Part shown: positions 19,176 to 43,071 of the stretch, one piece after another
Position numbering within the stretch: the stretch's first letter is position 1
Layout: each line of letters starts with the position of its first letter
NCBI RefSeq assembly: GCF_016195855.1
Contig: NZ_JACPYU010000012.1
Location: forward strand, 62,001-126,000
DNA: 64,000 nucleotides
Direction: 5' to 3'
Origin: Aquabacterium sp.
Lineage (GTDB): Bacteria > Pseudomonadota > Gammaproteobacteria > Burkholderiales > Burkholderiaceae_C
Program-made: the position numbers and the translations under genes
Notes under the pieces: model-generated
The model's database searches: none
What the model saw: only the letters and a program-made list of their open reading frames with translations
What the model was told of the DNA's origin: nothing

Positions 19176-19223
19176 GAATACTCCCCAAATGGGGATATTC
19201 AAGTGCACGCGTTCGGCGCGCTC

Positions 19224-19243
19224 AACTGAAACCAATGACAGTT
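19224..19243 (-). promoter_or_regulatory. lux box of luxI
   Basis: Read toward luxI, the site is AACTGTCATTGGTTTCAGTT, a 20-bp dyad of the form NNCTGN10CAGNN (22 bp if the outer C/G pair is counted). Sixteen of 20 bases match the second site at 20634-20653. It ends 49 nt before the luxI ATG, right for LuxR-dependent autoinduction of luxI. Confidence 0.75.
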
Positions 19244-19281
19244 GCCGCGCGTGTGCGCTTGTGCATGCCGGGGCCGCCCCC

Positions 19282-23748: not shown

Positions 23749-24483
23749 ATGGACGCTTTGAACCCTTCCCCGCTGGAACAGGTTCCTGCCGCGCTGCACA
23801 AGCAAGGCTGGGCCGTGATCAGCGCCGATACCCTGCTGAACTGGCTGCGCACCGATCAGGCCACGGCCGACGCCGTGCACGCCAGCTGGAACGACCTCCC
23901 GCCCGACCAGCACTTGCGCGACGGTGGCCATTACCGTTTTCGGCGTCACAGCTGCTTCAAGCTGGACCTCGCCACCGGCACTTTGAGCCAGACACCTCAC
24001 CGCGCCCACTGGCAACCGGTGACCTACAACGCCCTGCATGGCGGCTTTGAGCGGATGTTCCAGCCCATCGAGCCGGCCGTCTGCACGCACCCCATGTGGC
24101 AGGCCTTGCTGGCATCGATTGGCGGCCTGCTGGCACAAGCCAAGCCAGTGCCCACCTGGTACATCGAAGCCCACCAGTTCCGCGTGGACACCACGGGCGG
24201 CATCGGCCGCCCCACCCCCGAAGGCGCGCACCGCGATGGCGTGGACTTTGTGGCCGTGCTCATGCTGGAGCGCCATGAAGTCAAAGGCGGCGAGACACGC
24301 GTGTTCGAAGCCGACGGCCCGCACGGTGTGCGCTTCACGCTGACCCAGCCCTGGAGCACCCTGCTGCTGGACGACGAACGTGTGATCCATGAGTCCACGC
24401 CCATCCAGCCGGTGGGCGAACATGGCTGGCGCGACACGCTGGTGCTGACCTTCCGCCAAAGCGCCTTCCAGGGCCCGAACTGA
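23749..24483 (+). CDS. 2OG-Fe(II) dioxygenase family protein
   Basis: This 244-aa cytoplasmic protein has the 2-oxoglutarate/Fe(II) dioxygenase facial triad His161-x-Asp163 (EGAHRDGVDF) and distal His214 (DERVIHEST). A likely 2OG-binding Arg is in HGWRDTLVLTF (Arg228). The overall pattern, including GGHYRFRRHSCF and PTWYIEAHQFRV, matches the small bacterial 2OG-Fe dioxygenase family, some members of which hydroxylate free amino acids such as isoleucine. That substrate class is a family possibility, not a sequence reading. The stop lies 27 nt from the convergent reductase stop, with a perfect 14-bp palindrome (GGCCTGATCAGGCC, 24504-24517) between them. Confidence 0.82.
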   Translation: MDALNPSPLEQVPAALHKQGWAVISADTLLNWLRTDQATADAVHASWNDLPPDQHLRDGGHYRFRRHSCFKLDLATGTLSQTPHRAHWQPVTYNALHGGFERMFQPIEPAVCTHPMWQALLASIGGLLAQAKPVPTWYIEAHQFRVDTTGGIGRPTPEGAHRDGVDFVAVLMLERHEVKGGETRVFEADGPHGVRFTLTQPWSTLLLDDERVIHESTPIQPVGEHGWRDTLVLTFRQSAFQGPN

Positions 24484-24510
24484 GGGCGCTGGTGCGGCAT
24501 GCTGGCCTGA

Positions 24511-25824
24511 TCAGGCCGTGCCGTACTTGGTCTCCAGCCGGATGCCGATGGCCTGCAACAGCGGCGTCGGCAGCACCCCGCCTGCACACACGACCACGGT
24601 GTCATTGGGCAGCGTGCGCTCGCCCTCTGGCGTCTTCAGTTGCACCTGCGTGGCCTCGATGCACAGCACCGTCGATTGCAGGCAGACCTGGATGCGCCCG
24701 GCATCCTGCAGCTGCTTGAGCTTTTGCCGGTTTTTGTCCTTCACGCGCGAGAAGCCCTGGCTGCGATAGGACAAGGTCACCGTGGTACCGGGCTCTTCGG
24801 CCAGCGCGATGGCGGCCTCCAAGGCACTGTCCCCACCGCCCACCACGAGCACACGCTGCCCACGGTACTGCTCGGCATCGATCAGGCGGTAGACCACCTT
24901 GGCCTGCTCCTCGCCGGGCACGTCCAGCTTGCGTGGTGAACCTCGGCGCCCCAGGGCCAGCAAAACCGCCTTGGCGTGGTAGCTGGCCTGGCTGCTGCGC
25001 ACGGTGAAGCTGCCGTCTGCGTTGCGGTCGATGCCTTCGAGCTTTTCACCCAACTGCAGGCGCAGGCCGGTTTGCTTGACCACGTCCTGCCAGAAACTCA
25101 GCAGGCTTTCCTTGGCCACCTCGGTGCCCAGGTTCATCTCGCCAATGAGGTCCAGCCTGGCGGGGGCCGTCATCACCACCTTGTTGCGCGGGTAGTGGTA
25201 GACGGTACCGCCCAGTGCGTCTTCCTGCTCCAGGATGGCATAGCGCAACTGGTGATGCAACGCGCTCAGGCCCGCCGACATGCCCGCGGGGCCAGCGCCC
25301 ACGATGACCACATCCAAGGGCGTGTCGACGCGGCTCTGTTGCACGCGCTGGCGCATCGCCTGCATGGCCTGGCGCCCCTGCTCGGTGGTCTTGCGAATCA
25401 GGCCCATGCCGCCCAGCTCGCCGGCAATGAAGATGCCCGGCACATTGGTTTCAAACTCCTTGCTCAGCACCGGGATGTCCACCCCGCGCTCGGCCGTGCC
25501 GAACACCAGCGACAAGGCCTGGCTGGGGCAAGCTGTGACGCAGGCGCCATGGCCGATGCAGGCCGAGGCGTTGACCAGCGTGGCCTTGCCATCGACGATG
25601 CCCAGCGCTTGTTCGGGGCAGGCTTTCACGCAGGCACCCGAGCCAAAACAGCGATTAGGGTCCACCACCGGGTGCAAGGAGGCCGGCTCGTTCAGGCCCG
25701 CCTGACGCGACGCCGTCAAGGCGAGTTCGGCAGCCTGGAGCTTGCGGTGGCGCAACAGCAGGTGCAGGCCCACGGCCAGGGCGGCTGCACCACCATAAAC
25801 AGCGAAATAAGCAGGTATCAACAT
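24511..25824 (-). CDS. membrane-anchored ferredoxin-like FAD/NAD(P) oxidoreductase
   Basis: This 437-aa protein has an N-terminal membrane helix (about residues 5-24), a two-cluster ferredoxin-like domain (residues 57-105) and a thioredoxin-reductase-like flavoprotein domain. The FAD motif is VVIVGAGPAGMSAG and the NAD(P) motif is VLVVGGGDSALEAA; the redox CxxC of thioredoxin reductase is absent. Each iron-sulfur motif lacks the second cysteine: CFGSGACVKACP has Ser62 and CIGHGACVTACP has His92. ATG 25824 is preferred because it begins at the membrane helix; ATG 25932 would add 36 poorly matching residues across a hairpin. It is divergent from the electron-transfer operon, so it could link NAD(P)H or ferredoxin to that pathway; this is inference. 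Confidence 0.82.
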   Translation of the reverse strand: MLIPAYFAVYGGAAALAVGLHLLLRHRKLQAAELALTASRQAGLNEPASLHPVVDPNRCFGSGACVKACPEQALGIVDGKATLVNASACIGHGACVTACPSQALSLVFGTAERGVDIPVLSKEFETNVPGIFIAGELGGMGLIRKTTEQGRQAMQAMRQRVQQSRVDTPLDVVIVGAGPAGMSAGLSALHHQLRYAILEQEDALGGTVYHYPRNKVVMTAPARLDLIGEMNLGTEVAKESLLSFWQDVVKQTGLRLQLGEKLEGIDRNADGSFTVRSSQASYHAKAVLLALGRRGSPRKLDVPGEEQAKVVYRLIDAEQYRGQRVLVVGGGDSALEAAIALAEEPGTTVTLSYRSQGFSRVKDKNRQKLKQLQDAGRIQVCLQSTVLCIEATQVQLKTPEGERTLPNDTVVVCAGGVLPTPLLQAIGIRLETKYGTA

Positions 25825-25854
25825 GAAGACAGGACTGTGCCAGCGACCACAAGC

Positions 25855-25885
25855 GGCGGGGCTGATCGAGATCATCAGCCCCGCC
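25855..25885. promoter_or_regulatory. 12-bp hairpin enclosing an FNR/CRP-like dyad
   Basis: Perfect 12-bp arms (25855-25866 and 25874-25885) enclose TGATCGAGATCA (25863-25874), which fits the TGAT-N4-ATCA core of FNR/CRP-family sites. It lies in the 180-bp gap between the divergent reductase and inner-membrane genes. A weak minus-strand promoter (TTGCAC 25917-25912, 17 nt, CAGAAT 25894-25889) would place it in the reductase leader. No T-run follows on either strand, so it is not a typical terminator. Confidence 0.45.
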
Positions 25886-26004
25886 TGAATTCTGTAAGCG
25901 ATGTTAAACGTGTGCAAATCGCACATTTTCATAGGGTCCCTCTGGCTAGAATCCGGACGACGGGCTCACAAGGCCTTTCTTCATCTTTCGCAGTACAGGC
26001 CCCC

Positions 26005-26961
26005 ATGAGTGCCACCAGCTCGACTTTCAATGCGGCCGACACGGCCGGTGCGTCGTCATCCGCCCGCCCGGCAGGCTCGGCCGAGGCGAAAAACGCCGTG
26101 GGCGCTGTGGCCGTCGCACGTGCCCGCCTGCGCACCGACCTGCTCATCTACGTTGGCGTGGCCGCCCTCACGCTGAGCGCGTGGTGGGTCTCGCTGCAAG
26201 GCTGGTTCACGCCCTGGTCGCGCACCGGCTACTGGCTGGGGGTGGCGGGCGGTGTGGCCATGCTGCTGCTCTTCACCTACCCTTTGCGCAAGCGCTGGCG
26301 CGTCACCTACAACTGGGGCGCCTCCAAATACTGGTTCGTGGCGCACATGGTGCTGGGCATCATGGGGCCCTGGCTGATCCTGCTGCACTCGACCTTCCAC
26401 ATCGGCTCGACCAATGCAGCCGTGGCGCTGTTTTCCATGGTCATCGTGGCCCTCAGCGGCGTGGTCGGGCGCTTTCTGTATGTGCGGCTTCATGCCGACC
26501 TGCGCGGCGAGAAGGCCACGCTGGCCGGCTTGCGCGGCGCCATGGGCAACCAGCACCAGGCCGCCGACACGCGCCTGCAAGGCATGCCTGGCGTGCTAGA
26601 CGCGCTGCACGCGTTCGAGCGCGACACGCTGGACGCCAGGCCGAAACAAGGCGCCCGCCACCTGTGGCGCCTGTTCGTGCTGCCCATCCGGCGCCAGCGC
26701 GTGGCGCAGCAATGCAAGGCCGAGGTGAAGAAGCTCATCAAGCAAGGGGCGAGCGGGCAGAAGTGGTCCAAGACACAGGCCCTGTCACGCTACCGTGCCT
26801 GCTGTGAACAGGTGGACAGCTACGCCATGGCCGTGCAGCGCGCGGCGCAGTTCCAGACCTTCGAGCGCCTGTTCTCCATGTGGCATGTGGCCCATGTGCC
26901 CTTCGTGTGGATCATGGTGCTGTGCGCCGTCTTCCATGTTGTGGCCGTGCATGCCTATTGA
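26005..26961 (+). CDS. inner-membrane protein, likely di-heme cytochrome b
   Basis: This 318-aa protein has five likely membrane helices (about residues 45-63, 76-93, 110-132, 138-160 and 295-316). Helices 3 and 5 each carry histidines 14 residues apart (His114/His128 and His297/His311), the HX13H spacing typical of bis-His b-type hemes held by paired helices. A cytoplasmic or periplasmic charged loop (160-290) separates them. I therefore infer a quinone-interacting di-heme cytochrome b that passes electrons to or from the multiheme cytochrome encoded 21 nt downstream. ATG 26005 starts a 318-codon frame; a TAGAAT box (25947-25952) upstream may be a -10. The homologous place in PCC3-type clusters is held by a conserved inner-membrane protein. 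Confidence 0.7.
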   Translation: MSATSSTFNAADTAGASSSARPAGSAEAKNAVGAVAVARARLRTDLLIYVGVAALTLSAWWVSLQGWFTPWSRTGYWLGVAGGVAMLLLFTYPLRKRWRVTYNWGASKYWFVAHMVLGIMGPWLILLHSTFHIGSTNAAVALFSMVIVALSGVVGRFLYVRLHADLRGEKATLAGLRGAMGNQHQAADTRLQGMPGVLDALHAFERDTLDARPKQGARHLWRLFVLPIRRQRVAQQCKAEVKKLIKQGASGQKWSKTQALSRYRACCEQVDSYAMAVQRAAQFQTFERLFSMWHVAHVPFVWIMVLCAVFHVVAVHAY

Positions 26962-26982
26962 CGACCGCATCGAGCCATCGAC

Positions 26983-28959
26983 ATGAGCTTGCGCTGGTTG
27001 CGCCGCTTTGGCTTGCTGATCGGGCTGCTGCTGGCCGCCCTGCTGGCACCTGCGCACGCGCAGTCCATCGAGTCGGTGCTGGCGCCGGGTGAGGTCATCG
27101 CGGGCCACGCCAAGGTCGAGCACGAGTGCGCCAACTGCCACGTGCGCTTCAACCCCAAGGGGCAGGATGCCCTGTGCATGGCCTGCCACAAGGAGGTCGG
27201 CCAAGACATGAAGGCCCGCACCGGTTTTCACGGCCGCCAGCCTGCGGCCACCTGCCGCAGTTGCCACACCGACCACAAGGGGCGCCAGGCCAAAATCGTG
27301 CAGCTGGACACCAAACGCTTTGACCACAAGCAGACCGACTACCTGCTCAAGGCCAGGCACCTGGACGTGGCCTGCGACAAGTGCCACGCCAGCGGCAAGA
27401 AGTACTGGCAAGCCACCAGCGAATGCCTGAGCTGCCACAAGAAAGATGACGTGCACAAGGGCGGCATCAGCGGCAAGTGCGCGGACTGCCACACCGAAAC
27501 GGGCTGGAAGCACACCGACTTCGACCACGGCAAGAAGACCCACTTCGCGCTGGAAGACAAGCACGCCACCAAGGCCAAGTGCGACGACTGCCACAGCAAT
27601 GGCCGCTACAAGGACACGCCCAAGACCTGCATTGGTTGCCACAAGAAGGACGACGAGCACAAGGGCCAGTTCGGCGCCAAGTGCGAGACCTGCCACGGCG
27701 CCAAGGCCTGGAAGACGGTCAACTTCAACCACGACACCGACACGTCTTATGACCTGAAGGGCAAGCACCGCAAGACCGCCTGCACCGATTGCCACACCGG
27801 CCCGCTGTACAAACAGAAGCTGCCCGAACAATGCTGGGATTGCCACAAGAAAGACGACAAGCACAAGGAGAGCCTGGGCAAGGACTGCGCCTCGTGCCAC
27901 AGCGAAAGCGGCTGGAAAGACCCGCCCCGCTTTGACCACGGCAAGACCCGCTTCCCCCTGCTGGGCAAACACGGCAAGGTCGAGTGCAAGGACTGCCACC
28001 AGAGCGCCATGTACAAAGAGGCGCCCATGGACTGCCATGCATGCCACAAGAAGGATGACAAGCACGAGGGCACGCTGGGCAAAGCCTGTGTGGACTGCCA
28101 CTCCGAGCGCGACTGGCGCGCCACCGCTGGCCGCTTCGACCATGACAAGACCCGCTTTGCGCTGCGCAACGCCCATGCGCGCGGCCAGATCAAGTGCAGC
28201 GACTGCCACAAGGGCGGCCTCAAGGCGTTCCGCAACACGGAGATGGCCTGTTATGCCTGCCACAAGAAGGACGACAAGCACGAGGGCACACAGGGCCAGC
28301 AATGCGCGCAATGCCACGGCGACAAGGACTGGAAGGCCACCTTGTTCGACCACGGCAAGACACGCTTTGCGTTAACCGGCAGCCACAACCGGGTCGAATG
28401 CAAGGGCTGTCATGCAACAAAACGTTTCAATGACGTGCAGCGCGACTGCGTGGCCTGCCATCGCAAAGACGACCGCCACAAGGCCAAATTGGGCGCCCGT
28501 TGCGAGACCTGCCACAACACACGCAGCTGGAAATCCTGGGATTTCAACCACGCCAGACAGACGTCCTACCCCCTCACAGGTGAACACATCCGCGTGACCT
28601 GTGAAGCGTGTCACACCCAAGCTGCCCCAAGCGGCAAAACCGTGGCCGAGACCGGCCAGCGCTGCCTCGACTGCCACAGCAAGGACGACACCCACGACGG
28701 CCAGTTCGGCGTGCGCTGCGAGCAGTGCCATTCGACCAAAGGCTGGAAACAACTTGAAAAACACTTCAGCCTGCGCCCGGACAATATCCCTACAATGAAT
28801 GTGCAGTTTTCACATTTAGCAGTTGTAGTCGCAGTTTGCAGTACCCCGCCCTTCGTTCATGACGCCCACCCACCTCATCAGGCCCTGGATCCAAGCCGCC
28901 GCGTTCGCGCTGCTGCTGGTCTTGGGTTTGATGCTGGGTGTGGTGCCCGGGCGGGTTGA
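26983..28959 (+). CDS. periplasmic multiheme cytochrome c, 24 CXXCH motifs
   Basis: The product (658 aa as read) has a signal peptide (1-27, APAHAQS) and 24 CXXCH heme-binding motifs. They recur as about eight three-heme units with the signature CxxCHKKDDxHxG, then CxxCH...WK, then FDHxKTxFxLxGxHxxxxCxxCH, so the fold is probably an extended heme wire. The Lys/Asp-rich units suggest a soluble periplasmic carrier. It should shuttle electrons between the inner-membrane cytochrome b and the outer-membrane porin-cytochrome unit. The last ~55 codons after GWKQLEKHF contain no heme motif, run through AT-richer DNA and overlap the next gene by 101 nt, so the natural C-terminus may be lost or frame-shifted here. 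Confidence 0.9.
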   Translation: MSLRWLRRFGLLIGLLLAALLAPAHAQSIESVLAPGEVIAGHAKVEHECANCHVRFNPKGQDALCMACHKEVGQDMKARTGFHGRQPAATCRSCHTDHKGRQAKIVQLDTKRFDHKQTDYLLKARHLDVACDKCHASGKKYWQATSECLSCHKKDDVHKGGISGKCADCHTETGWKHTDFDHGKKTHFALEDKHATKAKCDDCHSNGRYKDTPKTCIGCHKKDDEHKGQFGAKCETCHGAKAWKTVNFNHDTDTSYDLKGKHRKTACTDCHTGPLYKQKLPEQCWDCHKKDDKHKESLGKDCASCHSESGWKDPPRFDHGKTRFPLLGKHGKVECKDCHQSAMYKEAPMDCHACHKKDDKHEGTLGKACVDCHSERDWRATAGRFDHDKTRFALRNAHARGQIKCSDCHKGGLKAFRNTEMACYACHKKDDKHEGTQGQQCAQCHGDKDWKATLFDHGKTRFALTGSHNRVECKGCHATKRFNDVQRDCVACHRKDDRHKAKLGARCETCHNTRSWKSWDFNHARQTSYPLTGEHIRVTCEACHTQAAPSGKTVAETGQRCLDCHSKDDTHDGQFGVRCEQCHSTKGWKQLEKHFSLRPDNIPTMNVQFSHLAVVVAVCSTPPFVHDAHPPHQALDPSRRVRAAAGLGFDAGCGARAG

Positions 28960-31900
28960 GGCCCAGACGGCCGCTACCAGCAAGTTCGATCACTTCAAGA
29001 CCGGCTTCCCGCTCAGCGGTGCGCACGGCACCTTGCGCTGCGAGTCCTGCCACACCAACGGGATCTTCAAGGGCACCCCCAAGGACTGCCAGACCTGCCA
29101 CACCACCGGCTCGCGTCTGTCCAAGTCCAACGTGGTGATGCCGCCCACGCACATCCCGACCAACACGGCCACCCAGACCTGCGACAGCTGCCACGGCACG
29201 CAGACCTTCACCAACCCGCGCTTCAGCCACACCACGGACGTGCCGCCTGGCACCAGCTGCCAGACCTGCCACGATGGTGTGCGCACCCAAGGCAAGCCAG
29301 CGGCTCACATCCCCACGCGTGCGGCCTGCGACACTTGCCACACCACCCGCAACTGGAACAGCGCCCGGCCTGACCACAGCGGCTTCAACACCTCGACCAA
29401 CTGCGCCTCCTGCCACAACGGCGCCACAGCCAGCGGCAAGAGCTCGAACCACATCCCCGTCACGGCCAACTGCATCAGTTGCCACAACGTGAATGGCTGG
29501 AAGCCCACCAGCTGGAGCCACACCCAGGTCAACGTTGCCGGCGCCTGCTCGACCTGCCACTCTGGCGCCTTCCCGCCTGCCGATGGCCGGCCAGCCAACC
29601 ACATCCCCTATCAGTCGCTCTCTGGCGTGGCCATCAGCAACTGCGACAGCTGCCACAAGGGTGGGTTCAACTCCTGGAACCCCGGGCTGTTCCACGCCAA
29701 CGTGGCCGTCTCCGGCCAGTGCGCCAGTTGCCACCTCACCACCGCATTCAGCCTGACGGCCAAGCCGGCCACGGCCACACACAGCACGGTGACGGGCAAC
29801 TGCGAGTCCTGCCACAACAGCACGGGATGGAACAGCGTCAAGGTCGATCACAGCAAGCTGCCACCGGGCGCGCAATGCGCCACGTGCCACAATGGCTCGA
29901 CCGCGACCGGCAAGCCGGGCAACCACATTCCGGTGTCCGCCAACTGCAGCACCTGCCACAGCACCACCGGCTGGAAGCCCACCAACTGGAACCACACGCA
30001 GGTGCTGGTCGCCGGTCAGTGTTCCACCTGCCACTCCGGCAGCTTCCCGCCCGCGGATGGGCGGCCGGGCAACCACATCCCTTATCAGTCGCTCAGCGGC
30101 GTGGCCATCGCCAACTGCGACAGCTGCCACAAAGGCGGCTACAGCAGCTGGAACCCCGGGCGCTTCCACAGCAACGTCAGCGTCATTGGCCAGTGCGCCA
30201 CCTGCCACCTGAGCAGCGCCTATGGCTTGACCAGCAAGCCGGCCAATGCCACCCACAGCGCGGTCACGGGCAATTGCGAGTCCTGCCACAACACCAGCGG
30301 CTGGGCGGGTGCCAAGGTCGATCACAGCGGCTTCAATGCCAGCACCCAGTGCGCCACCTGCCACAACGGCGGCACCGCCACGGGCAAGCCCGGCAGCCAC
30401 ATCCCCGTGACCGTCAACTGCTACAGCTGCCACGCCACCACGGGCTGGACACCGACCAAGTGGAACCACACCCAGGTCACCGTGGCGGGCACCTGCTCGA
30501 CCTGCCACTCCGGCGCCTTCCCGCCGGCTGATGGCCGCCCCAGCAACCACATCCCTTATCAATCGCTGACCGGTGCCGCCATCAGCAACTGCGACAGCTG
30601 CCACAAGGGGGGCTATACCGCCTGGAACCCAGGGCGCTTCCACAGCAATGTCAGCATCGTGGGCCAGTGCGCCACCTGCCACCTCACATCGGCCTATGGC
30701 CTGACCACCAAGCCCGCCGACACCACCCACAGCACCGTGAGCGGCGGCTGCGAGTCCTGCCACAACACCAGCGGCTGGGCCGGCGCCAAGGTGGACCACA
30801 GCAAGTTCACGGCAGCCACGCAGTGCGCTTCTTGCCACAACGGCAGCACGGCCACGGGCAAGCCGGGTAGCCACATCCCCGTGACAGCCAACTGCTACAG
30901 CTGCCACAACGTGACGGGCTGGACACCAACGAAGTGGAACCACACCCAGGTCACCGTGGCCGGCACCTGCTCGAGCTGCCACTCCGGCGCCTTCCCGCCG
31001 GCCGATGGCCGCCCCAGCAACCACATCCCTTATCAATCGTTGACCGGTGCGGCCATCACCAACTGCGACAGCTGCCACAAGAGCGGCTACAGCGCCTGGA
31101 ACCCGGGGCGCTTCCACAGCAATGTCAGCATCATCGGGCAATGCGCCACCTGCCACCTCACCGCAGTCTATGGCTTGACCAGCAAGCCGGCTGACAGCCT
31201 GCACGCCACGGTGACGGGCGGCTGCGAGTCCTGCCATAACACCAGCGGTTGGACCGGGGCCAAGGTCGACCACAGCAAGTTCACCGCGGCCACGCAGTGC
31301 GCCTCCTGCCACAACGGCAGCGCCGCCACCGGCAAGCCCGGCAGCCACATCCCCGTGACGGCCAACTGCTACAGCTGCCACAACACCACGGGCTGGACAC
31401 CGACCAAGTGGAACCACACCCAGGTCACCGTGACGGGCGTGTGCTCGACCTGCCACTCAGGCGCCTACCCACCGGCCGATGGCCGCCCCAGCAACCACAT
31501 CCCTTATCAGTCCATCACCGGTGCGGCCATCGGCAACTGCGACAGCTGCCACAAGAGCGGCTATGCGGCCTGGAACCCCGGGCGCTTTCACGGCAATGTC
31601 AGCGTCATCGGCCAGTGTTCGACCTGCCACCTCACGGCCGCTTACGGTCTGACCAGCAAGCCCAATACCGCGCTGCACGCGGGCATTGCCAGCAACTGCG
31701 AGTCCTGCCACAAGTCCACGGCCTCCTGGACCAGCGTGACCTACGCCCACTCGGCCGCTAACGCCGTGGGCACCGGCACCTGCGACAACTGCCACAACGG
31801 CAGCACCGCCACCGGCAAGCCCAGCAGCCACATCCCCATCCAGGTGGGTGGCGTGAAGTGCGACAGCTGCCACAAGTCCCAGCAAGCCTGGACGACCAGC

Positions 31901-32284
31901 TTCACGATGAACCACACCGCCGTGAGCGCGCAGGCTTGCAAGACCTGCCACACCCCGACTTACGCTGGTTCAGGCGCCACGGCCAAACCCAACAACCACA
32001 TCCCTGAGGTGCAGTTGCTCAACGGCTCGATGATGGACTGCAAAGCCTGCCATACCAACACCAATGCAGGCGGCTTCAGCACGGCCGTGATGAACCACAA
32101 CAACAGCCAGGGCGGCGGATCGGGCTGGTGTTACGCCTGCCACAACGCCGGCACGGCCTACCTGGGCAGCATGGAACGCAAGTCGCTGACCCACCAGAAG
32201 AAAACCGGCGTCACCGACTGCTCCCAATCCGGCTGCCACCGACCGCTGGGCGGGGTGGGCAGCACCTACCGCAACTGGAACTGA
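28859..32284 (+). CDS. giant multiheme cytochrome c, 40 CXXCH plus one CX4CH
   Basis: This 1141-aa exported protein has an N-terminal signal peptide (about 1-35, ending RVEAQT). I count 40 CXXCH motifs and a final CX4CH (CSQSGCH). Residues about 205-994 are five tandem 158-residue units of six hemes each, with recurring NHIPYQSL, SWNPGRFHSN and GKPGSHIPVTANC; the extra His in HIP, NHTQ and RFH may be distal heme ligands. Unlike its Lys-rich neighbour it is rich in Ser, Thr, Gly and Asn, typical of surface proteins. I infer an extracellular electron wire seated on the porin encoded 30 nt downstream. No lipobox is visible. No clear Shine-Dalgarno precedes ATG 28859. Confidence 0.9.
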   Translation: MTPTHLIRPWIQAAAFALLLVLGLMLGVVPGRVEAQTAATSKFDHFKTGFPLSGAHGTLRCESCHTNGIFKGTPKDCQTCHTTGSRLSKSNVVMPPTHIPTNTATQTCDSCHGTQTFTNPRFSHTTDVPPGTSCQTCHDGVRTQGKPAAHIPTRAACDTCHTTRNWNSARPDHSGFNTSTNCASCHNGATASGKSSNHIPVTANCISCHNVNGWKPTSWSHTQVNVAGACSTCHSGAFPPADGRPANHIPYQSLSGVAISNCDSCHKGGFNSWNPGLFHANVAVSGQCASCHLTTAFSLTAKPATATHSTVTGNCESCHNSTGWNSVKVDHSKLPPGAQCATCHNGSTATGKPGNHIPVSANCSTCHSTTGWKPTNWNHTQVLVAGQCSTCHSGSFPPADGRPGNHIPYQSLSGVAIANCDSCHKGGYSSWNPGRFHSNVSVIGQCATCHLSSAYGLTSKPANATHSAVTGNCESCHNTSGWAGAKVDHSGFNASTQCATCHNGGTATGKPGSHIPVTVNCYSCHATTGWTPTKWNHTQVTVAGTCSTCHSGAFPPADGRPSNHIPYQSLTGAAISNCDSCHKGGYTAWNPGRFHSNVSIVGQCATCHLTSAYGLTTKPADTTHSTVSGGCESCHNTSGWAGAKVDHSKFTAATQCASCHNGSTATGKPGSHIPVTANCYSCHNVTGWTPTKWNHTQVTVAGTCSSCHSGAFPPADGRPSNHIPYQSLTGAAITNCDSCHKSGYSAWNPGRFHSNVSIIGQCATCHLTAVYGLTSKPADSLHATVTGGCESCHNTSGWTGAKVDHSKFTAATQCASCHNGSAATGKPGSHIPVTANCYSCHNTTGWTPTKWNHTQVTVTGVCSTCHSGAYPPADGRPSNHIPYQSITGAAIGNCDSCHKSGYAAWNPGRFHGNVSVIGQCSTCHLTAAYGLTSKPNTALHAGIASNCESCHKSTASWTSVTYAHSAANAVGTGTCDNCHNGSTATGKPSSHIPIQVGGVKCDSCHKSQQAWTTSFTMNHTAVSAQACKTCHTPTYAGSGATAKPNNHIPEVQLLNGSMMDCKACHTNTNAGGFSTAVMNHNNSQGGGSGWCYACHNAGTAYLGSMERKSLTHQKKTGVTDCSQSGCHRPLGGVGSTYRNWN
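29471..31840 (+). repeat. five tandem 474-bp coding repeats
   Basis: Equivalent Cys codons fall at 29471, 29945, 30419, 30893 and 31367, exactly 474 bp apart, giving five units of 158 codons and six heme motifs. A sixth, degenerate unit begins at 31859 with an 18-bp length change. Units 3, 4 and 5 look most alike, consistent with recent duplication. Recombination between units could change heme number. Confidence 0.92.
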
Positions 32285-32314
32285 CGCGCGCCAGCCAGCC
32301 CTCATCACCACAAC

Positions 32315-34813
32315 ATGAACCCTGTGACACGCCCCCGGCTGCTGGCCGCACTGATGGCCCTGAGCACCTGGTCTGCTCATGCAGAAATCCTCGATGACAT
32401 CGACGTGCGCCGCGAAGGCGCCAACGCGGTGGTGCAGATCCGCCTGAGCAACCCGGTCAGCCTGCTGCGCTCGACCCCATCGCGCTCCAAGGACCTGACC
32501 CAGGCCTACTACCAGGTCCGGCTCACCGATGTGCCGCCGGTGTACGTGGCCGGTGAACGGCGCGTGGTCAAGACCGACGGCCTGCCCACGCTCACCATCG
32601 AAGACGAACCCGTTCGCACCGACAAGCTCGATGACATCAACCGTCGGCTGGTGATCTCGTTCAGCCAGGCCACCGCATTCAAGGTACGCACCGGCAAGGG
32701 CGACCGCACCATCGAGGTGGTGCTGGAAGGCCTGGGCGCAGCCGTCAAACAGGCTACCGCCAGACCCGAGCCAGCGCCCGCACCCGAGCAGCGCTATGTC
32801 ATTGCCCTGGTCCGCTCCAGCGACCCGAATATCAGCGTGGACGTGCCCATTCCCCAGTCCCTGCAGAACTGCCAGGTGTTCACGGCGCGGCGCATCGTGG
32901 ACGGCAAACAGGTCCACGAGATGGACCTGGGCTACTTCGCCACGCTGGCTGAAGCCGAAGCTGCGCTCAAACAACTGAGCCGCTTCCCACAAGCCGCGAT
33001 CGTCAAGCTGGCCGAGCCCGCGCAAGCCAAGGCCGATGCCGGCGCGCCAGCCCCTGCCGCCATGCCCGCCCCCGCGCCGGCCGCACCCCAAGCCACCGCG
33101 CAACAAGCGCGCGATCTGCTGGACCAGTCCCGTCAAGCCTATGAGCAACAAAGGCTGGACGACGCCGTCAAGCTGCTCAACCAGTTGCTGGACTTGCCCC
33201 CTAGTGCCCTCACCCCCGACGCCCAGGAGCTGCTGGGCATGGTGCGGCTGGCACAAGGCGAGCCCGCCAAGGCCCAGGCCGAGTTCGAGACCTACCTCAA
33301 GCAATACCCACAAGGCCCGGGCGCCGAACGCGTCAAGTCGGCGCTGGCCGGCATCCAGCCGACCGAGCTGAAGCCGGCCACCACCATTGAAACCCTGGCC
33401 AAGCCCGAACGCACCAACACCGTCACCGGCTCGGTTTCGCAGTACTACTACGGCGGCAAATCGACCACGGAAACCCAGGCCGTGCGCGACACCGACGGCT
33501 CGCCGCTGAGCCCCGACGAAATCGACAAGCGCAGCAAGGCCCCCATCAGCACCAACGACCAGCGCCTGTTGTCCACCAATGTGGACACCACCTGGCGCTC
33601 GCGCGACACCGAGCGCGACATGAAGATGGTGTTCCGTGACCAGTACGACTACAACCTGCTGAGCGACGCCCAGCTCAAAGGCAAAAGCCGCAGCCGCAAC
33701 CGCCTGACCGCGGCCTACTTCGACTACCAGGGCTTGAAGAATGGCCTGCGCACGCGCCTGGGCCGGCAGTCGGCCATGTGGGGTGGCGAAGGCCGCTATG
33801 ACGGCGCCTCCGGCAGCTATGCGCTCAAACCCAAGCTGAAGGTGTCGGCCGCCGTGGGTTCGCCCACGGATCAGCTGGGCAACGCCAAGCGCTACTTCAT
33901 GGGCACGGCCCTGGATGCCGATGCGCTCACGCCCAATCTGGGCGGCTCGATCTTCGCGCTGCAGCGCATGGTCGATGGCGAGGTGGACCGCCGCGCCGTG
34001 GGCGCCGACCTGCGCTACTTCACGCAGAACGCCTCGCTGATGGGCTCGACCGACTACGACGTGATCTTCAAGAAGCTCAACGTGGCCAGCCTGCAGGGCA
34101 TGTACATGGCCGAGGACAACACCACGGTCAACGCCCTGTACGAGCGCCGCGCCCTGACCCCGGCTGCCCTGAGCCAGACCCTGTTCTTCCAGTTCCAGGA
34201 TTTTGTGGACGCGGGCATCATCCCTCAGACCATCACTGACCTGAAGAACCACGGCTACAGCGTCGACCAGTTGCGCGAGCTGGTGCGCAGCAACGTCTCG
34301 TACTGGACGCATTCCATGGTGTCGGTGACCAGACCGGTCACCACCCAATGGCAGGCCGGCGCCACGGTGGACCTCAACCGCACCGGCCCCATCGCCCCCA
34401 ACCCGGTGCTGCCCACCGGCCAGCCCGACAGCGGCCAGTCCCGCACGCTGAGCCTGCTGGCCATTGGCTCCAACCTGTACTCCGAGCGCGACACCAATGT
34501 GTTCACGGCCTCGGTGATGCGCGGCCGCCAGGTCAAGACCTACATGCTCAACTACAACAACATGACGCCACTGAGCGATGCCTGGCAGATCGAGCCCGGC
34601 CTGCGCTGGCAGCGCAATGTGAGCCAGGACCTGACGTCTGGCCTCAATATCACGACGGTCGCCTGGGGGCCTGGTTTGAAGGCATCATTCAAGCCTCGCC
34701 CCACCGTCACGCTGGAGAGCAATCTGAACGTGGACTACACCCGCACAGAAGGCACCAGCATCGACCGCAGCACCCGCTATACCTACTTCCTTGGCTACCG
34801 CTACGACTACTGA
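32315..34813 (+). CDS. outer-membrane beta-barrel with AMIN and TPR parts (porin of the cytochrome conduit)
   Basis: This 832-aa protein has a signal peptide (1-23, AHAEI). An AMIN-like beta domain (about 25-135; ILDDIDVRREGANAVVQIRL) is followed by a SPOR-like or linker part with an Ala/Pro stretch (about 250-262). TPR-like helices (about 262-345; ARDLLDQSRQAYEQQRLDDAV) lead to a long beta-strand region (about 360-832) ending in aromatic RYTYFLGYRYDY, the usual outer-membrane barrel terminus. The large size and periplasmic helical part fit porins of PCC3-type clusters. It would form the sheath through which the 24-heme and 40-heme proteins touch. It lacks the N-terminal CXXC seen in MtrB. 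ccmA starts at or just after its end. Confidence 0.8.
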   Translation: MNPVTRPRLLAALMALSTWSAHAEILDDIDVRREGANAVVQIRLSNPVSLLRSTPSRSKDLTQAYYQVRLTDVPPVYVAGERRVVKTDGLPTLTIEDEPVRTDKLDDINRRLVISFSQATAFKVRTGKGDRTIEVVLEGLGAAVKQATARPEPAPAPEQRYVIALVRSSDPNISVDVPIPQSLQNCQVFTARRIVDGKQVHEMDLGYFATLAEAEAALKQLSRFPQAAIVKLAEPAQAKADAGAPAPAAMPAPAPAAPQATAQQARDLLDQSRQAYEQQRLDDAVKLLNQLLDLPPSALTPDAQELLGMVRLAQGEPAKAQAEFETYLKQYPQGPGAERVKSALAGIQPTELKPATTIETLAKPERTNTVTGSVSQYYYGGKSTTETQAVRDTDGSPLSPDEIDKRSKAPISTNDQRLLSTNVDTTWRSRDTERDMKMVFRDQYDYNLLSDAQLKGKSRSRNRLTAAYFDYQGLKNGLRTRLGRQSAMWGGEGRYDGASGSYALKPKLKVSAAVGSPTDQLGNAKRYFMGTALDADALTPNLGGSIFALQRMVDGEVDRRAVGADLRYFTQNASLMGSTDYDVIFKKLNVASLQGMYMAEDNTTVNALYERRALTPAALSQTLFFQFQDFVDAGIIPQTITDLKNHGYSVDQLRELVRSNVSYWTHSMVSVTRPVTTQWQAGATVDLNRTGPIAPNPVLPTGQPDSGQSRTLSLLAIGSNLYSERDTNVFTASVMRGRQVKTYMLNYNNMTPLSDAWQIEPGLRWQRNVSQDLTSGLNITTVAWGPGLKASFKPRPTVTLESNLNVDYTRTEGTSIDRSTRYTYFLGYRYDY

Positions 34814-35426
34814 CCCCGGACACTGGCACGTGCGCGCCCAGGCACTGGCCTGCCGCCGGGGTGCCCGCCTGCTGTTCGACCAGCTGGACCTGAGCGTGCA
34901 AGCCGGCAAGCTGGTGTGGGTGCGCGGCCCCAACGGCCAGGGCAAGACCAGCTTGCTGCGCCTGCTGGCGGGCCTGTCCGAGTCGGCTGAGGGCCAGATC
35001 GAGCGCGCCGCCCGCGTGGTCTACCTGGGCCATCAGCACGCCTTGAAAGACGACCTCAGCGCCCAGGAAGCCCTGGCCTTCCTGGTGGACCTGCACGGCG
35101 ACCAGGCCGACGAGCCCAAGCTGGTGGACGCCCTGGCCCACATGGGCGTCAAAGGCAAACGCCACAGCCCGGTTCGCACCCTGTCGCAAGGCCAGCGCCG
35201 GCGCGTGGCCCTGGCGCGGCTGCTGCTGACACCGCCCGACACCTGCTGGGTGCTGGACGAGCCCTTTGACGCGCTGGATGACACCGGCGTGGCCACGCTC
35301 AACGCCCTGCTGCAGGCGCATCGGCAAGCGGGCGGCTCGGTCGTGCTGACCAGCCACCAGGCGCTCACCCTGCCCGACCGCATCGAGCTGGACCTGGCCG
35401 CTGTGGCCAGCCTGGCGCGGAGCTGA
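34791..35426 (+). CDS. ccmA: heme ABC exporter ATPase CcmA
   Basis: This is the cytoplasmic ATPase of the CcmAB(C) complex of cytochrome c maturation System I, which drives release of holo-CcmE. Walker A is GPNGQGKTS, the signature is LSQGQRRR, Walker B is CWVLDEPFDALD and the switch His is in TSHQAL. The start is uncertain: TTG 34791 overlaps the porin end by 23 nt, while GTG 34830 gives a more typical N-terminus (VRAQALACRRG). Either way the gene directly follows the porin, so the heme-attachment operon is likely to be co-transcribed with the multiheme cytochromes. It is followed 5 nt later by ccmB. Confidence 0.93.
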   Translation: MATATTTDPGHWHVRAQALACRRGARLLFDQLDLSVQAGKLVWVRGPNGQGKTSLLRLLAGLSESAEGQIERAARVVYLGHQHALKDDLSAQEALAFLVDLHGDQADEPKLVDALAHMGVKGKRHSPVRTLSQGQRRRVALARLLLTPPDTCWVLDEPFDALDDTGVATLNALLQAHRQAGGSVVLTSHQALTLPDRIELDLAAVASLARS

Positions 35427-35431
35427 TCACC

Positions 35432-36088
35432 ATGTGGACCCTGATCCTGCGTGACTGGCGGCTGGCTGCACGGCGCCGCGTCGAGGCCCTGCTGCCGCTG
35501 GTCTTCTTCATCGTGGCCGCCAGCCTGTTCCCGCTGGGTGTGGGGCCTGAGCCGCAAACCCTGCGCACCATCGCGCCCGGCGTGGTGTGGGTCTGCGCCC
35601 TGCTGGCCTCGCTGCTGTCCCTGGGCAGCCTGTATGGCCCTGACTTTACCGATGGCAGCCTGGAGCAGATGCTGTTGAGTGGCCGATCACTGCCCGGCCT
35701 GGCCCTGGCCAAGGCCTTTGCCCACTGGACGGTCAACGGCCTGCCCCTGGTGCTGGCCTCACCCGTGCTGGGCTTGCTGTTTGACCTGCCCGGCGAGCCG
35801 TTGCTCACCTTGGTGGCCAGCTTGCTGCTGGGCACGCCGGTACTCAGCCTGCTTGGGGGCGTGGGCGCGGCCTTGACGCTGGGCCTGCGCAGCGGCGGCA
35901 TGCTGATCGTGCTGCTGGTCTTGCCCCTGGCCGTACCGGTGCTGATCTTTGGCGCCGGCTCGGTGGTGGCCGTATCCTCGGGGCTGTCGCCCGAAGGCCA
36001 CCTGTCCCTGCTGGGCGCCTTGTTGCTGCTGACCCTGCTGGGCGCGCCCTGGGCCACCGCCGCTGCCTTGAAGATTGCCCTGGATTGA
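35432..36088 (+). CDS. ccmB: heme exporter membrane subunit CcmB
   Basis: This 218-aa integral membrane protein of six helices is the permease-like partner of CcmA. The N-terminus WTLILRDWRLAARRRVEALLPLVFF is typical of CcmB, followed by LFPLGVGPEPQTLRTIAPGVVWV and the helix-rich remainder. It works with CcmA and CcmC in System I. The ATG lies 5 nt after the ccmA stop, and ccmC begins 16 nt after its own stop. Confidence 0.95.
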   Translation: MWTLILRDWRLAARRRVEALLPLVFFIVAASLFPLGVGPEPQTLRTIAPGVVWVCALLASLLSLGSLYGPDFTDGSLEQMLLSGRSLPGLALAKAFAHWTVNGLPLVLASPVLGLLFDLPGEPLLTLVASLLLGTPVLSLLGGVGAALTLGLRSGGMLIVLLVLPLAVPVLIFGAGSVVAVSSGLSPEGHLSLLGALLLLTLLGAPWATAAALKIALD

Positions 36089-36104
36089 TGCCCCGGACCG
36101 AACC

Positions 36105-36869
36105 ATGTCAAACCTGAGCTGGACCACCTTTGCCGCCCCCTCGAAGTTCGAGTGGCTGGCTTCGGCCTTGATGCCCTGGCTGTGGGCCCTGTGCCTGATC
36201 ATGTCGGCGGCCGGCTTGTACCAAGGCTTCATCGTGGCCCCGACCGACTTCCAGCAAGGCCAGTCCTACCGCATCATCTTCATCCACGTGCCGGCTGCGT
36301 GGATGTCCATGGTGCTGTACATGGCCATGGCCGTGTGGGCCGCCGTGGGCTGGGCCTTCAAGGTGCGGCTGGCGTCCATGCTGGCGCGCGCCATCGCCCC
36401 CACCGGCGCGATGTTCACCTTCATCGCCCTGTGGACGGGCGCCTTCTGGGGCAAGCCCACCTGGGGCGCCTGGTGGGTGTGGGATGCCCGCCTCACGTCC
36501 GAGCTGATTCTGCTGTTCCTGTACCTGGGCTACATGGCGCTGACCGAAGCCATCGACGACCCACGCCGCAGCGACGCGGCCGGCGCGCTCATCGCCCTGG
36601 TGGGCGCCATCAACGTGCCCATCATCTATTTCTCGGTGCGCTGGTGGAACACCTTGCACCAGGGCGCCTCCATCAGCATGACCGCCGCGCCCAAGATGGC
36701 CTCGACCATGCTCACCGCCATGTTGTTGATGACCGTGGCCTTCTGGGCCTATGCCTTCGCCGTGGTCTTCACCCGCACCCGCGCCATCGTGCTGGAGCGC
36801 GAGCGTGAAACGCAGTGGGTGCAGGCGCTGGTGAATGGCCGCAACGGGCGCAATGGGCTCAAGGAGTAA
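36105..36869 (+). CDS. ccmC: heme handling protein CcmC
   Basis: This 254-aa membrane protein of about six helices binds heme on the periplasmic side and loads it onto CcmE. The tryptophan-rich WWD motif is present as WGAWWVWDARLTSEL, flanked by the conserved periplasmic His in IIFIHVPAAWMSM and the second in YFSVRWWNTLHQGASI. ATG 36105 (AACC spacer after a weak GA-rich segment) is chosen because it starts the CcmC-like SWTTFAAP region; an upstream in-frame ATG at 36075 is less typical. ccmD follows after 3 nt. Confidence 0.96.
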   Translation: MSNLSWTTFAAPSKFEWLASALMPWLWALCLIMSAAGLYQGFIVAPTDFQQGQSYRIIFIHVPAAWMSMVLYMAMAVWAAVGWAFKVRLASMLARAIAPTGAMFTFIALWTGAFWGKPTWGAWWVWDARLTSELILLFLYLGYMALTEAIDDPRRSDAAGALIALVGAINVPIIYFSVRWWNTLHQGASISMTAAPKMASTMLTAMLLMTVAFWAYAFAVVFTRTRAIVLERERETQWVQALVNGRNGRNGLKE

Positions 36870-36872
36870 GCC

Positions 36873-37061
36873 ATGTCGACACCGCAATGGCACAGCCTGT
36901 CTCAATTCATCGCCATGGATGGCTATGGCCTGTACATCTGGGGCGCGTATGGCGTGACCTTGCTGTGCATGGTGATCGAGCCGCTCATGGCCCTGCATCG
37001 CCGCCGCCAGGCCTGGCAGTCCGCCCAAGAGATGGCCGCGACCGAACAAGAGGAAGCCTGA
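36873..37061 (+). CDS. ccmD: heme exporter small subunit CcmD
   Basis: This 62-aa protein has one membrane helix ([21 protein letters not shown]) and a basic then acidic cytoplasmic tail, typical of CcmD. It stabilises the CcmABC-CcmE complex and helps release holo-CcmE. The Tyr-rich segment before the helix ([16 protein letters not shown]) is a CcmD hallmark. It starts 3 nt after ccmC and ends 1 nt before ccmE. Confidence 0.93.
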
Positions 37062-37062
37062 C

Positions 37063-37524
37063 ATGACCCCGCGCAAAAAGCGCCTGACGCTGATCCTGGG
37101 TGGCCTGGCCATCCTGGGCGTGGCCACCGCCCTGGTGCTCAACGCCTTCCAGAAGAACCTCGTGTTCTTCTTCACGCCCTCGCAGATCGTCGCCAAGGAG
37201 GCCCCGCTGGACCGCACCTTCCGCCTCGGTGGCCTGGTTGAAAAGGGCTCCGTATCGCGTGACGGCGTGATGGTCAATTTCGTGGTGACCGACACCTTCC
37301 GCAAGGTGCCCGTGCGCTACCAGGGCATCCTGCCCGACCTGTTCAAGGAAGGCAAAGGCGTGGTGGCCCAAGGCAAGCTGGGCGCCGATGGTGTCTTCGT
37401 GGCGCAAGAGGTGCTGGCCAAGCACGACGAGAACTACATGCCCCCTGAAGCCGCCGAGGCGCTCAAGCGCGCCGCGCAAGCCAACGCCCGCATCGAAGCA
37501 GGGCAAGCCAAGGAGATGAAATGA
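37063..37524 (+). CDS. ccmE: heme chaperone CcmE
   Basis: This 153-aa periplasmic heme chaperone is anchored by one N-terminal helix (about residues 7-28). The OB-fold core includes [12 protein letters not shown] and [23 protein letters not shown]. The covalent heme-binding His is in [11 protein letters not shown], matching the HxxxY form of System I CcmE. It takes heme from CcmC and passes it to CcmF/CcmH for ligation. Its stop overlaps ccmF by 4 nt (ATGA). Confidence 0.96.
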
Positions 37525-39497: not shown

Positions 39498-40018
39498 AAC
39501 GTTTCCTGCTCCCGCTGGGCATCTTCCTGGCGCTGGCCGTGTTCCTGGGCCTGGGCCTCAAGCACGACCCGCGTGAAGTGCCCTCGCCCCTGATCGGCAA
39601 GCCCGCCCCCGCCTTCAACCTGCCCACGCTGAGCGATGGTCAGCGCGCGCTGCGCAAGGAAGACATGCTGGGCAAGGTGTGGATGCTCAATGTCTGGGCC
39701 TCGTGGTGTGGCGCCTGCCGTGAAGAACACCCCGTGCTGGTCGAGTTCGCCCGCCGCAATGTGGTGCCCATCTATGGCCTGAACTACAAGGACGAGCGCC
39801 CCGATGGCCTGGCCTGGCTGCGCGCGGGCGGCAACCCTTATGTCGAGTCCCTGTTCGACCACGATGGCCGCATCGGCATCGACTTCGGCGTGTACGGCGT
39901 GCCCGAGACCTTCATCATCGACCAGCACGGCGTGATCCGCTACAAGCAGATCGGCCCCATCACGCCCGAGGTGCTGCGCGACAAGATCGAACCTTTGTTG
40001 AGGCAACTGAATGGCTGA
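39494..40018 (+). CDS. ccmG: periplasmic thioredoxin CcmG/DsbE
   Basis: This 174-aa membrane-anchored thioredoxin-fold protein reduces apocytochrome heme-site cysteines. The active site is WASWCGACREEHP and the cis-Pro region is GVYGVPETFIID. The family insertion GLNYKDERPDGLAWLRAGGNPY is clear. The N-terminal helix (about residues 3-20) anchors it in the inner membrane. It overlaps ccmF by 4 nt and ccmH by 8 nt. Confidence 0.95.
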   Translation: MKRFLLPLGIFLALAVFLGLGLKHDPREVPSPLIGKPAPAFNLPTLSDGQRALRKEDMLGKVWMLNVWASWCGACREEHPVLVEFARRNVVPIYGLNYKDERPDGLAWLRAGGNPYVESLFDHDGRIGIDFGVYGVPETFIIDQHGVIRYKQIGPITPEVLRDKIEPLLRQLNG

Positions 40019-40568: not shown

Positions 40569-40605
40569 TCAGCCCTGATCTGCCCGCCCTCCACCGAAGC
40601 CCCAC

Positions 40606-41835: not shown

Positions 41836-41882
41836 CCGCCCTGCGCTGATCAGCCACATCGGCCTGTTCAACGATAACCCGC

Positions 41883-43070: not shown

Positions 43071-43071
43071 G

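Follow-up and report, generated by a model that had tools for sequence, protein, structure and literature searches.

The 64,000-nucleotide stretch of Aquabacterium sp. DNA analysed here (the window) carries a reductase gene, a multiheme cytochrome conduit and the genes ccmABCEFGHI in one 17.4-kb block (24484..41882). The ORF listing confirmed all five conduit genes of the original prediction at positions 24511-34813. The block is present or absent at one site: it was missing at the same left junction in 5/5 block-negative congeners examined (of 35), in all of which DNA similarity to the window ends at 24476-24489. Similarity restarts at 41947 in L103 and at 42867 in L105, and only at 48317-48386 in L104, L106 and L107, so that these three are missing the following 6 kb as well. 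The left flank is a 2OG-Fe dioxygenase gene (23749..24483, + strand; PF10014, E 1e-68), a neighbour conserved even where the block is missing. The right flank gene (41883..43112, - strand) encodes a protein of unknown family, with no NCBIfam match at E 1e-5; in L103 and L105 the two flank genes are direct neighbours.

The reductase lies on the - strand in an open frame at 24511-25932. Its start is likely Met37 (25824), giving a gene at 24511..25824, since the Aquabacterium sp. NJ1 protein and many of the listed relatives are 435-437 aa long. Pfam matches (Pyr_redox_3, E 1e-44; Fer4_10, E 8e-12), motifs, a hydrophobic segment and co-occurrence identify it as a flavo-ferredoxin NAD(P)H-type reductase with a predicted N-terminal membrane anchor, which bears out the divergent FAD/NAD(P) reductase with a ferredoxin-like domain first predicted from the DNA. 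The hydrophobic N-terminal segment occurs in 44/54 loci, and two odd Fe-S motifs, CxxSxxCxxxCP and CxxHxxCxxxCP, are conserved. The C-terminal flavoprotein, with two dinucleotide-binding domains, resembles YpdA/Bdr and TrxR-like ferredoxin-NADP reductases (TIGR04018, 169 bits; PDB 7a76, 7a7b). However, unlike these, the window reductase has the predicted anchor, the two odd Fe-S motifs and no CxxC. Identity with YpdA was rejected (169 bits, cut-off 339.9), as was identity with thioredoxin reductase (TrxR; 82 bits, cut-off 343, the disulfide-active CxxC missing).

The inner-membrane protein (IMP; 26005..26961, + strand, 318 aa) is a predicted di-heme b protein, judged by five hydrophobic segments, motifs and alignment. 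The b-heme-like histidines of the original prediction were found as two WX3HX13H motifs (residues 110 and 293), which, with SGVVG (SGXXG) at residue 151, are conserved in alignment A2. Two HX13H-spaced histidine pairs in membrane helices, a spacing reported for the ferric reductase/NADPH oxidase domain (FRD, PF01794) in PMC5566968, are a likeness to that family, as is an NAD(P)H-FAD module, predicted to be cytoplasmic here. The window differs from that family in having its NAD(P)H module on a protein of its own, TrxR/FNR-like and carrying Fe-S motifs. Neither by sequence nor by fold did the system match ferric reductases or NADPH oxidases: scanning the IMP against Pfam from residue 60 onwards (26182-26961) gave no PF01794 match, and the structure model (pLDDT 85.6) gave a best Foldseek E of 0.19 with no relevant row. 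Since the IMP model has no significant fold match, the analogy is one of histidine spacing alone.

Two multiheme cytochrome (MHC) ORFs follow on the + strand and share a 101 bp overlap. MHC-A (26983..28959), predicted to be periplasmic, has 24 CXXCH motifs in eight triheme units (PF14522, E 3e-26). MHC-B (28859..32284), the predicted outer wire, has 40 CXXCH and one CX4CH at 32219-32239 (PF14522, E 5e-74), with 82/82 cysteines in 41 heme motifs. These counts match the predicted pair of 24- and 40-CXXCH cytochromes with 64-plus hemes; with the CX4CH there are 65 heme sites, at 27.4 (MHC-A) and 28.5 (MHC-B) aa/heme. A hexaheme tandem repeat of 474 bp (158 aa) runs for 4.8 copies on the + strand at 29402..31662 (Tandem Repeats Finder, 81% matches), its four full-length units being 75-87% identical in DNA to each other. 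The sequence TGYNNNNNNTGYCAY matches the window exactly at 67 places, where shuffling gives an expectation of 9.3 (0/100 shuffles reach 67), 64 of the 67 being on the + strand at 27127-32143. Among distinct loci, the first cytochrome hardly varies in its number of hemes (24 in 37/42, otherwise 21 or 27), and the second has from 12 to 70, mostly in six-heme steps, with a count of 4 modulo 6 in 22/37 loci. Six hemes per repeating unit are also found in Geobacter OmcS, described as a hexaheme cytochrome (PMC12977616); unlike in the OmcS nanowire, the hexaheme units of the window are joined in one chain. By sequence, no solved structure was matched at E 0.001, and MHC-B scored 158.6 bits with the decaheme DmsE model, below the cut-off of 192.2. 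No lipobox was found in MHC-B, which leaves its route to, and retention at, the cell surface unexplained and counts against the outer-wire reading.

The last conduit gene (32315..34813, + strand) encodes a predicted outer-membrane barrel with periplasmic beta, SPOR-like and TPR regions. From the earlier description of a large AMIN/TPR beta-barrel, the barrel is again predicted and a TPR is probable: PF13432 matches at E 6e-7 with 30.3 bits, a little short of its cut-off of 32.7, and the model has helices at 258-346. The AMIN part fell away, with no match in the Pfam scan, and the SPOR match is weak (E 0.12). By our own count on a model with a pTM of only 0.54, the predicted barrel has 22 strands, for which the computed backbone radius is 20.0 A versus 14.8-16.5 A at 16-18 strands. 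Its best VIA alignments were to the barrels of TonB-dependent receptors, whose width accommodates a folded plug; the top rows of Foldseek itself were smaller porins and the usher FimD, and BcsC, FimD and AlgE were among its matches. A secretion channel without pore room for a cytochrome had been named as grounds for refuting a conduit; the barrel is instead predicted to be wide.

The ccm operon comes directly after the porin on the + strand. The ORF of ccmA (34791-35426; ABC_tran) overlaps the porin stop, and is followed by the ORFs of ccmB (35432-36088; assigned by order) and ccmC (36075-36869; TIGR01191), then ccmE (37063-37524; NCBIfam CcmE), ccmF (37521-39497; NCBIfam CcmF/NrfE), ccmG (39494-40018; assigned by order), ccmH (40011-40568; NCBIfam NrfF-like, below cut-off) and ccmI (40606-41835; NCBIfam NrfG/CcmI-like, both below cut-offs). 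In block-positive congeners the linked CcmE was the only CcmE in 6/7, and a System II ResB was also present in 5/7.

The locus is a member of PCC3, the porin-cytochrome type to which the original prediction had likened its gene order. PCC3 was described in 2017 as four genes, for an IMP, a periplasmic MHC, an outer MHC and a porin, with median heme numbers of 34 and 21 and up to 85 (He et al. 2017, PMC5566968). In the window these genes are neighbours, the IMP has the form given for PCC3 (~300 aa, five membrane helices, two WX3HX13H and one SGXXG), the very high heme numbers fall within 22-39 aa per heme, and the porin is 90% identical to that of Aquabacterium sp. NJ1, listed as a PCC3-bearing genome (PMC5566968). 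The NJ1 locus (L099) has the same gene order and the same 24/40 heme counts. Of the features once thought new or unusual, the heme number and repeat architecture are therefore ordinary for PCC3 (24 is usual and 40 is mid-range among the 42 distinct loci), and both the divergent reductase and the ccm genes are widespread at PCC3 loci. However, unlike the four-gene PCC3 of the published description, the window adds the reductase, a fifth gene that co-occurs, and has the ccm operon in the same block. By analogy, an outer-membrane barrel with multiheme cytochromes bridging the periplasm would be shared with MtrCAB/MtoAB/PioAB, although the window has a b-type IMP and not a CymA-like entry. MtrB has 26 strands, against the 22 predicted here. 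Membership of the MtrAB/MtoAB class was rejected, the cytochromes having 24 and 41 heme sites, unlike the decahemes MtrA and MtoA, and the barrel giving no MtrB/PioB family match in the Pfam scan.

The conservation of the reductase is the more interesting result, as it is not among the components named in the published PCC3 description (PMC5566968). Within 100 relatives (own genome included), the reductase was found in 11 genomes, and these are precisely the ones with both the IMP and a strong porin match. It was present in 10 of 200 order-level genomes, all 10 with the IMP, and in the nine besides the window's own the two genes are adjacent and divergent, with 234-396 bp between match ends. 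The six strong matches of each among 398 phylum-level genomes also coincide. In the union of these overlapping samples, reductase and IMP occur together in 21/21 genomes with a strong match to either (reductase, E <= 1e-134; IMP, E <= 1e-47). Weak one-sided matches were reductase-like in G265 and G259 (33-35% identity, E 1e-45 and 1e-41) and IMP-like in G211 and G591 (E 1e-15 and 7e-12). Among porin-selected loci covered for 6 kb or more upstream and 9 kb or more downstream, 28/30 showed the reductase; of the two misses, L071 shows it in a longer view taken as the same record (L101), and L032 is well covered with no reductase nearby. Distances of the reductase and the IMP correlate (r 0.80, n 38, permutation p 0.001), but those of the reductase and ccmF do so too (r 0.81, n 29), so the test does not single out the IMP. 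Moreover, the reductase changes place, being upstream and divergent at some loci and following the porin or ccm genes at others, and therefore co-transcription with the IMP is not general.

Taken together, we favour, with moderate confidence, a PCC3-type cassette that forms an electron wire across both membranes, fed by an NAD(P)H reductase and with its proposed path through the 22-strand barrel. The predicted membrane-anchored flavo-ferredoxin reductase would pass NAD(P)H electrons to the predicted di-heme b IMP, and these would then travel through the predicted periplasmic 24-heme and predicted outer 41-heme cytochromes and out via the predicted 22-strand barrel; heme-loading capacity would come from the ccm genes alongside. 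The 24-heme protein may bridge the periplasm at a fixed length, and recombination of the hexaheme repeat may make the outer wire longer or shorter. We infer that one MHC lies outside and one in the periplasm. In ferric reductases and NADPH oxidases an NAD(P)H domain serves a b-heme domain, and by analogy the reductase would be the electron partner of the IMP, the same pairing divided between two proteins. As the reductase is present in 21/21 sampled genomes clearly carrying the IMP, the wire is likely linked to NAD(P)H, not only to quinones. Flow would probably be outward, since electrons leaving NAD(P)H for the exterior run downhill and with the help of the membrane potential, whereas transfer from Fe(II) to NAD(P)+ by this route would be uphill.

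In the published model (PMC5566968), PCC3 likely takes electrons in, for example from Fe(II), and the IMP delivers them to the quinone pool; the reductase would then be an accessory (redox balance, regulation) off the main path. Inward flow fits the occurrence of PCC3 in Leptothrix, Sideroxydans (e.g. Sideroxydans lithotrophicus ES-1) and other iron oxidisers and the Cyc2-like gene of NJ1, the carrier of the near-twin locus (both PMC5566968). It also fits the RuBisCO large subunit in the window's own genome and the upregulation of the PCC3 copy 2 IMP in iron-oxidising cells of CL21 (PMC12442390). However, the other PCC3 genes of CL21 did not change significantly with iron oxidation (PMC12442390), both PCC3 clusters of ES-1 are downregulated on Fe(II) (PMC8788666), and the outer cytochrome Slit_1448 has 0 in all eight columns of its row in the ES-1 proteome (PMC12016527). 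In strain ES-1, a role of PCC3 as Fe(II) oxidase has no backing from published expression data. Together with the CL21 result and the coincidence of reductase and IMP in every strong genome, this makes the inward reading rather unlikely.

A role for the reductase in cytochrome c maturation, keeping apocytochrome cysteines reduced and linked to PCC3 only via its large heme load, would suit its resemblance to thioredoxin and bacillithiol disulfide reductases, its frequent position next to ccmI and its correlation in distance with ccmF. Against this, CxxC was not found in the window reductase nor in 3/4 others checked, the single CxxC of the L019 reductase being at the N-terminus; CcmE occurs in 56/100 relatives and the reductase in 11/100; and L063, L069, L075 and L084 have the reductase with no ccm match in view. 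We regard this role as the least probable of those considered. Scarcely more credible is a barrel that serves, with its TPR arm, in secretion or polysaccharide export, the cytochromes being a periplasmic electron store. The TPR-plus-barrel architecture does recall BcsC/PelB-type exporters, the Foldseek matches include BcsC, FimD and AlgE, and MHC-B has no lipobox; the predicted strand number, computed radius and receptor-like alignments of the barrel argue otherwise, as do the at least two cytochrome open frames between IMP and barrel in 44/44 loci.

PCC3 occurs in many Proteobacteria and has been treated, in the literature cited here, as a four-gene candidate Fe(II) oxidase. If the reductase partner is obligate, the cytoplasmic end of the path moves from quinones to NAD(P)H and outward electron export becomes the first hypothesis to test. 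A bolder proposal, which we put forward tentatively and think may well fail in some part, is that PCC3 is an NAD(P)H-powered exporter (not, or not only, an iron-oxidising intake), the split, wire-tipped counterpart of an NADPH oxidase. A fifth protein, so far unrecognised and bearing two non-canonical Fe-S sites, would belong to its core; the whole would come and go as a single self-sufficient cassette that brings its own machinery for heme loading, the 24-heme cytochrome serving as a periplasm ruler and the outer wire being length-tuned in six-heme steps. The reductase offers a specific marker gene, and its single-gene knock-out would separate the models. A cassette with its own heme-loading genes is a natural start for work on long electron conduits in laboratory hosts, and the constant 24-heme and six-step outer cytochromes form a natural length series for heme wire studies.

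Between the divergent reductase and IMP genes lies the palindrome TGTGCAAATCGCACA (25911..25925), a candidate shared operator. Its form, TGTGC-N5-GCACA, was not found in nine of the 13 divergent loci checked and is present in the window, L019, L020 and L022.

All five open reading frames of the original prediction are present in the window: a reductase of the flavo-ferredoxin NAD(P)H type (24511..25824, minus strand) and, on the plus strand, a predicted inner-membrane di-heme b protein (IMP, 26005..26961), a predicted periplasmic cytochrome (MHC-A, 26983..28959), a predicted outer cytochrome (MHC-B, 28859..32284) and a porin (32315..34813). The CXXCH motif was observed 67 times window-wide against 9.3 expected from shuffling, with 64 of the 67 lying within the two cytochrome genes. 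Heme counts and protein families rule out membership of MtoAB/MtrAB or PCC4, and the IMP carries the complete PCC3 signature. The PCC3 genomes listed in the text of PMC5566968, the source description, include Aquabacterium sp. NJ1 (G038), a congener of the window genome. The NJ1 locus (L099) encodes cytochromes of 24 and 40 hemes, as in the window, and a porin that is 90% identical. The window locus is therefore an ordinary PCC3 in gene order and heme number, and the suggestion that its heme number is new or unusual is not supported. The text of PMC5566968 gives median heme numbers of 34 and 21 for PCC3, with a maximum of 85, and up to 42 predicted membrane segments for PCC3 porins, above the 22 strands counted in the window's model.

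The 22-strand predicted model argues against the barrel being a secretion channel. Of the AMIN/TPR architecture ascribed to it, the TPR part is likely, falling just under the Pfam cut-off, whereas no AMIN match was found; a SPOR match in Pfam is weak. The top rows of the Foldseek search, all with low TM-scores, were chitoporin, MOMP, OprD-type porins and FimD. MtrB was not among the 50 matches listed in either barrel structure search, and the IMP fold search returned generic helical matches with no b-type cytochrome among those listed; neither absence excludes anything.

The reductase is a conserved, likely partner of PCC3. Porin matches were found in 13 of 100 relatives (own genome counted), two of them marginal at E 7e-4, and the 11 non-marginal genomes coincide fully with the set that has the reductase (E <= 1e-60) and with the set that has the IMP (E <= 1e-10). 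For independent genomes, the probability of drawing the same 11 of 100 by chance is 7e-15; common descent raises the true figure. An order-level sample of 200 genomes contained the reductase in 10 and the IMP in 11, the surplus IMP being a partial match (1e-15), and in all nine positives besides the own genome reductase and IMP lie side by side in divergent orientation. At phylum level (398 genomes), six strong reductase and IMP matches coincide, one of them from another class, while two reductase-like matches and one IMP-like match, all weak, stand alone. These samples overlap and together contain 21 strongly positive genomes; weak relatives may be missed, since scoring was restricted to a small number of top candidate places in each genome. 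The reading of two genomes (G604 and G299) as having the two genes unlinked was dropped, since their IMP contigs end 2.6-3.6 kb past the IMP, inside cytochrome genes; their reductase contigs likewise start or end inside cytochrome genes.

Loci selected by porin similarity give the same picture. Sixty-seven were fetched, one of which (L065) was dropped before counting because its porin score lay below threshold. The reductase was seen at 28 of the 30 loci with enough flank (window counted). One miss, L071, is apparently the same record as L101, where the gene sits upstream and divergent, leaving L032 as the one exception among the 30. The gene lies beyond the porin in 20 of the 28, often behind ccm genes. 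PMC5566968 describes screening five genes either side of the cytochrome gene, so this position may explain the omission of the reductase from that description. Its main text contains none of the terms 'ferredoxin', 'FAD', '4Fe-4S' and 'ccm'; its section 18 names a further redox protein in the case of PCC4 and other clusters, not of PCC3; and PMC12442390 also presents PCC3 as four genes. The association of PCC3 with the reductase or ccm was not found in the open literature; subscription papers and supplements lay outside this scope, and it may be in print elsewhere.

Placement behind ccm genes could also be read as marking the reductase as a ccm component, to which we give low probability. The window reductase contains no CxxC, making a role as disulfide reductase unlikely (L108, L101 and L071 were excluded from the locus comparison that included this check and a palindrome scan). 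A hydrophobic N-terminal segment is present at 44 of 54 loci, and the printed segments usually lead into Arg/Lys, which would place the remaining protein in the cytoplasm. Two ferredoxin-like motifs follow, then a TrxR/FNR-like flavoprotein domain. Ser takes the place of the second Cys in the first Fe-S motif, and His does so in the second motif; this holds for 50 of 51 parsable locus reductases (three of the 54 lacked a parsable motif pair) and for all 120 relatives listed, of 8000 passing threshold. There are actinobacterial ferredoxins with CxxHxxC that bind [3Fe-4S] clusters.

In the window, ccmABCEFGHI come after the porin, and reductase, conduit and ccm genes form one block (24484..41882). 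Where 9 kb or more of downstream sequence was available (48 loci), one or more ccm genes were matched at 41, with ccmF at 29 and ccmI at 39; the ccmI matches may be less specific, as this protein contains TPRs. The block's CcmE is the sole CcmE in six of seven block-positive congeners, and ResB, the System II marker, occurs in five of the seven. The own genome holds a second CcmE, a System II ResB and a RuBisCO large subunit (G000:C13:5937-6227, C17:243066-245156; L092). In all five block-negative congeners examined, of 35, the neighbourhood is conserved, with similarity to the window breaking at 24476-24489 and restarting past the ccm genes. The cleanest case (L103) has 77 bp between points 17.5 kb apart in the window. 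At L104, L106 and L107 a further 6 kb is missing, up to ~48.3 kb, and the right-hand edge thus differs among congeners. GC content gives no sign of a recent foreign origin of the block (0.652 for the conduit and 0.667 for ccm, versus 0.653 and 0.667 for the flanks).

The two cytochromes vary differently. MHC-A has 24 CXXCH arranged as eight triheme units. In MHC-B, 40 CXXCH and a CX4CH at the C-terminus make up 41 heme motifs, which account for all 82 Cys. Of the 39 second cytochromes encoded by a single ORF (two duplicates counted), 37 carry a CX3CH or CX4CH past the last CXXCH. The 158-aa hexaheme unit on which MHC-B is built corresponds to a 474-bp tandem repeat of 4.8 copies (29402-31662). 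The two genes overlap by 101 bp in different frames (28859-28959); an overlap of the open frames is shared by L019, L020 and L021 but missing from L022. Across 42 distinct loci of 44 (L108 duplicates L019 and L101 duplicates L071, judged partly by equal counts), the heme number of the first cytochrome is 24 at 37 loci, 27 at four and 21 at one, a multiple of three throughout. The second ranges from 12 to 70 hemes across 37 distinct single-ORF loci, and equals 4 modulo 6 in 22 of these, the remaining 15 being misfits (binomial p 5e-9 under independent loci, which they are not). This count leaves out L023, L027, L042, L047 and L063, in which the outer cytochrome is divided between two open frames, through assembly error, frameshift or the presence of two genes. 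The coefficient of variation in heme number is 0.04 for the first cytochrome and 0.39 for the second (duplicates counted). Relatives with porins at least 65% identical to the window's have 28, 34, 40 or 46 hemes in the second cytochrome, that is, whole-unit differences. The simplest reading is that hexaheme units are duplicated or lost in the outer cytochrome while the inner one is constrained in length. That a 21-27-heme protein could span the periplasm has already been put forward in PMC10734462. Larger outer cytochromes occur in Aquabacterium humicola (L066, 70 CXXCH) and at the Ferrovum-like L071/L101 (54 CXXCH, ~2290 aa from first to last heme).

NAD(P)H has a potential of about -320 mV. 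Transfer from NAD(P)H to the exterior would be downhill, and electron exit from a negative-inside cell would be favoured; transfer from Fe(II) to NAD(P)+ along the same path would be uphill. Published data on direction are mixed. Many iron oxidisers are reported to carry PCC3, and the window's genome encodes a RuBisCO large subunit (NF003252, 787 bits). Both PCC3 clusters of S. lithotrophicus ES-1 are reported down on Fe(II) (PMC8788666), and those of CL21 are described as expressed above the mean without following iron oxidation, with the exception of one PCC3 IMP that rose with it (PMC12442390). It is therefore likely that the window locus is an electron conduit and likely that the reductase is its partner, and outward flow is only somewhat favoured over inward flow.

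An acyl-homoserine-lactone synthase-like gene (18615-19316, minus strand) and a LuxR/SdiA-like regulator gene (19732-20508, plus strand), both matching below curated cut-offs, lie ~4 kb left of the block, and putative quorum control of the block by this pair is possible. A palindrome, TGTGC-N5-GCACA (25911-25925), lies in the gap between the reductase gene and the divergently oriented IMP gene as a candidate operator, and recurs in three of 12 other divergent loci checked.
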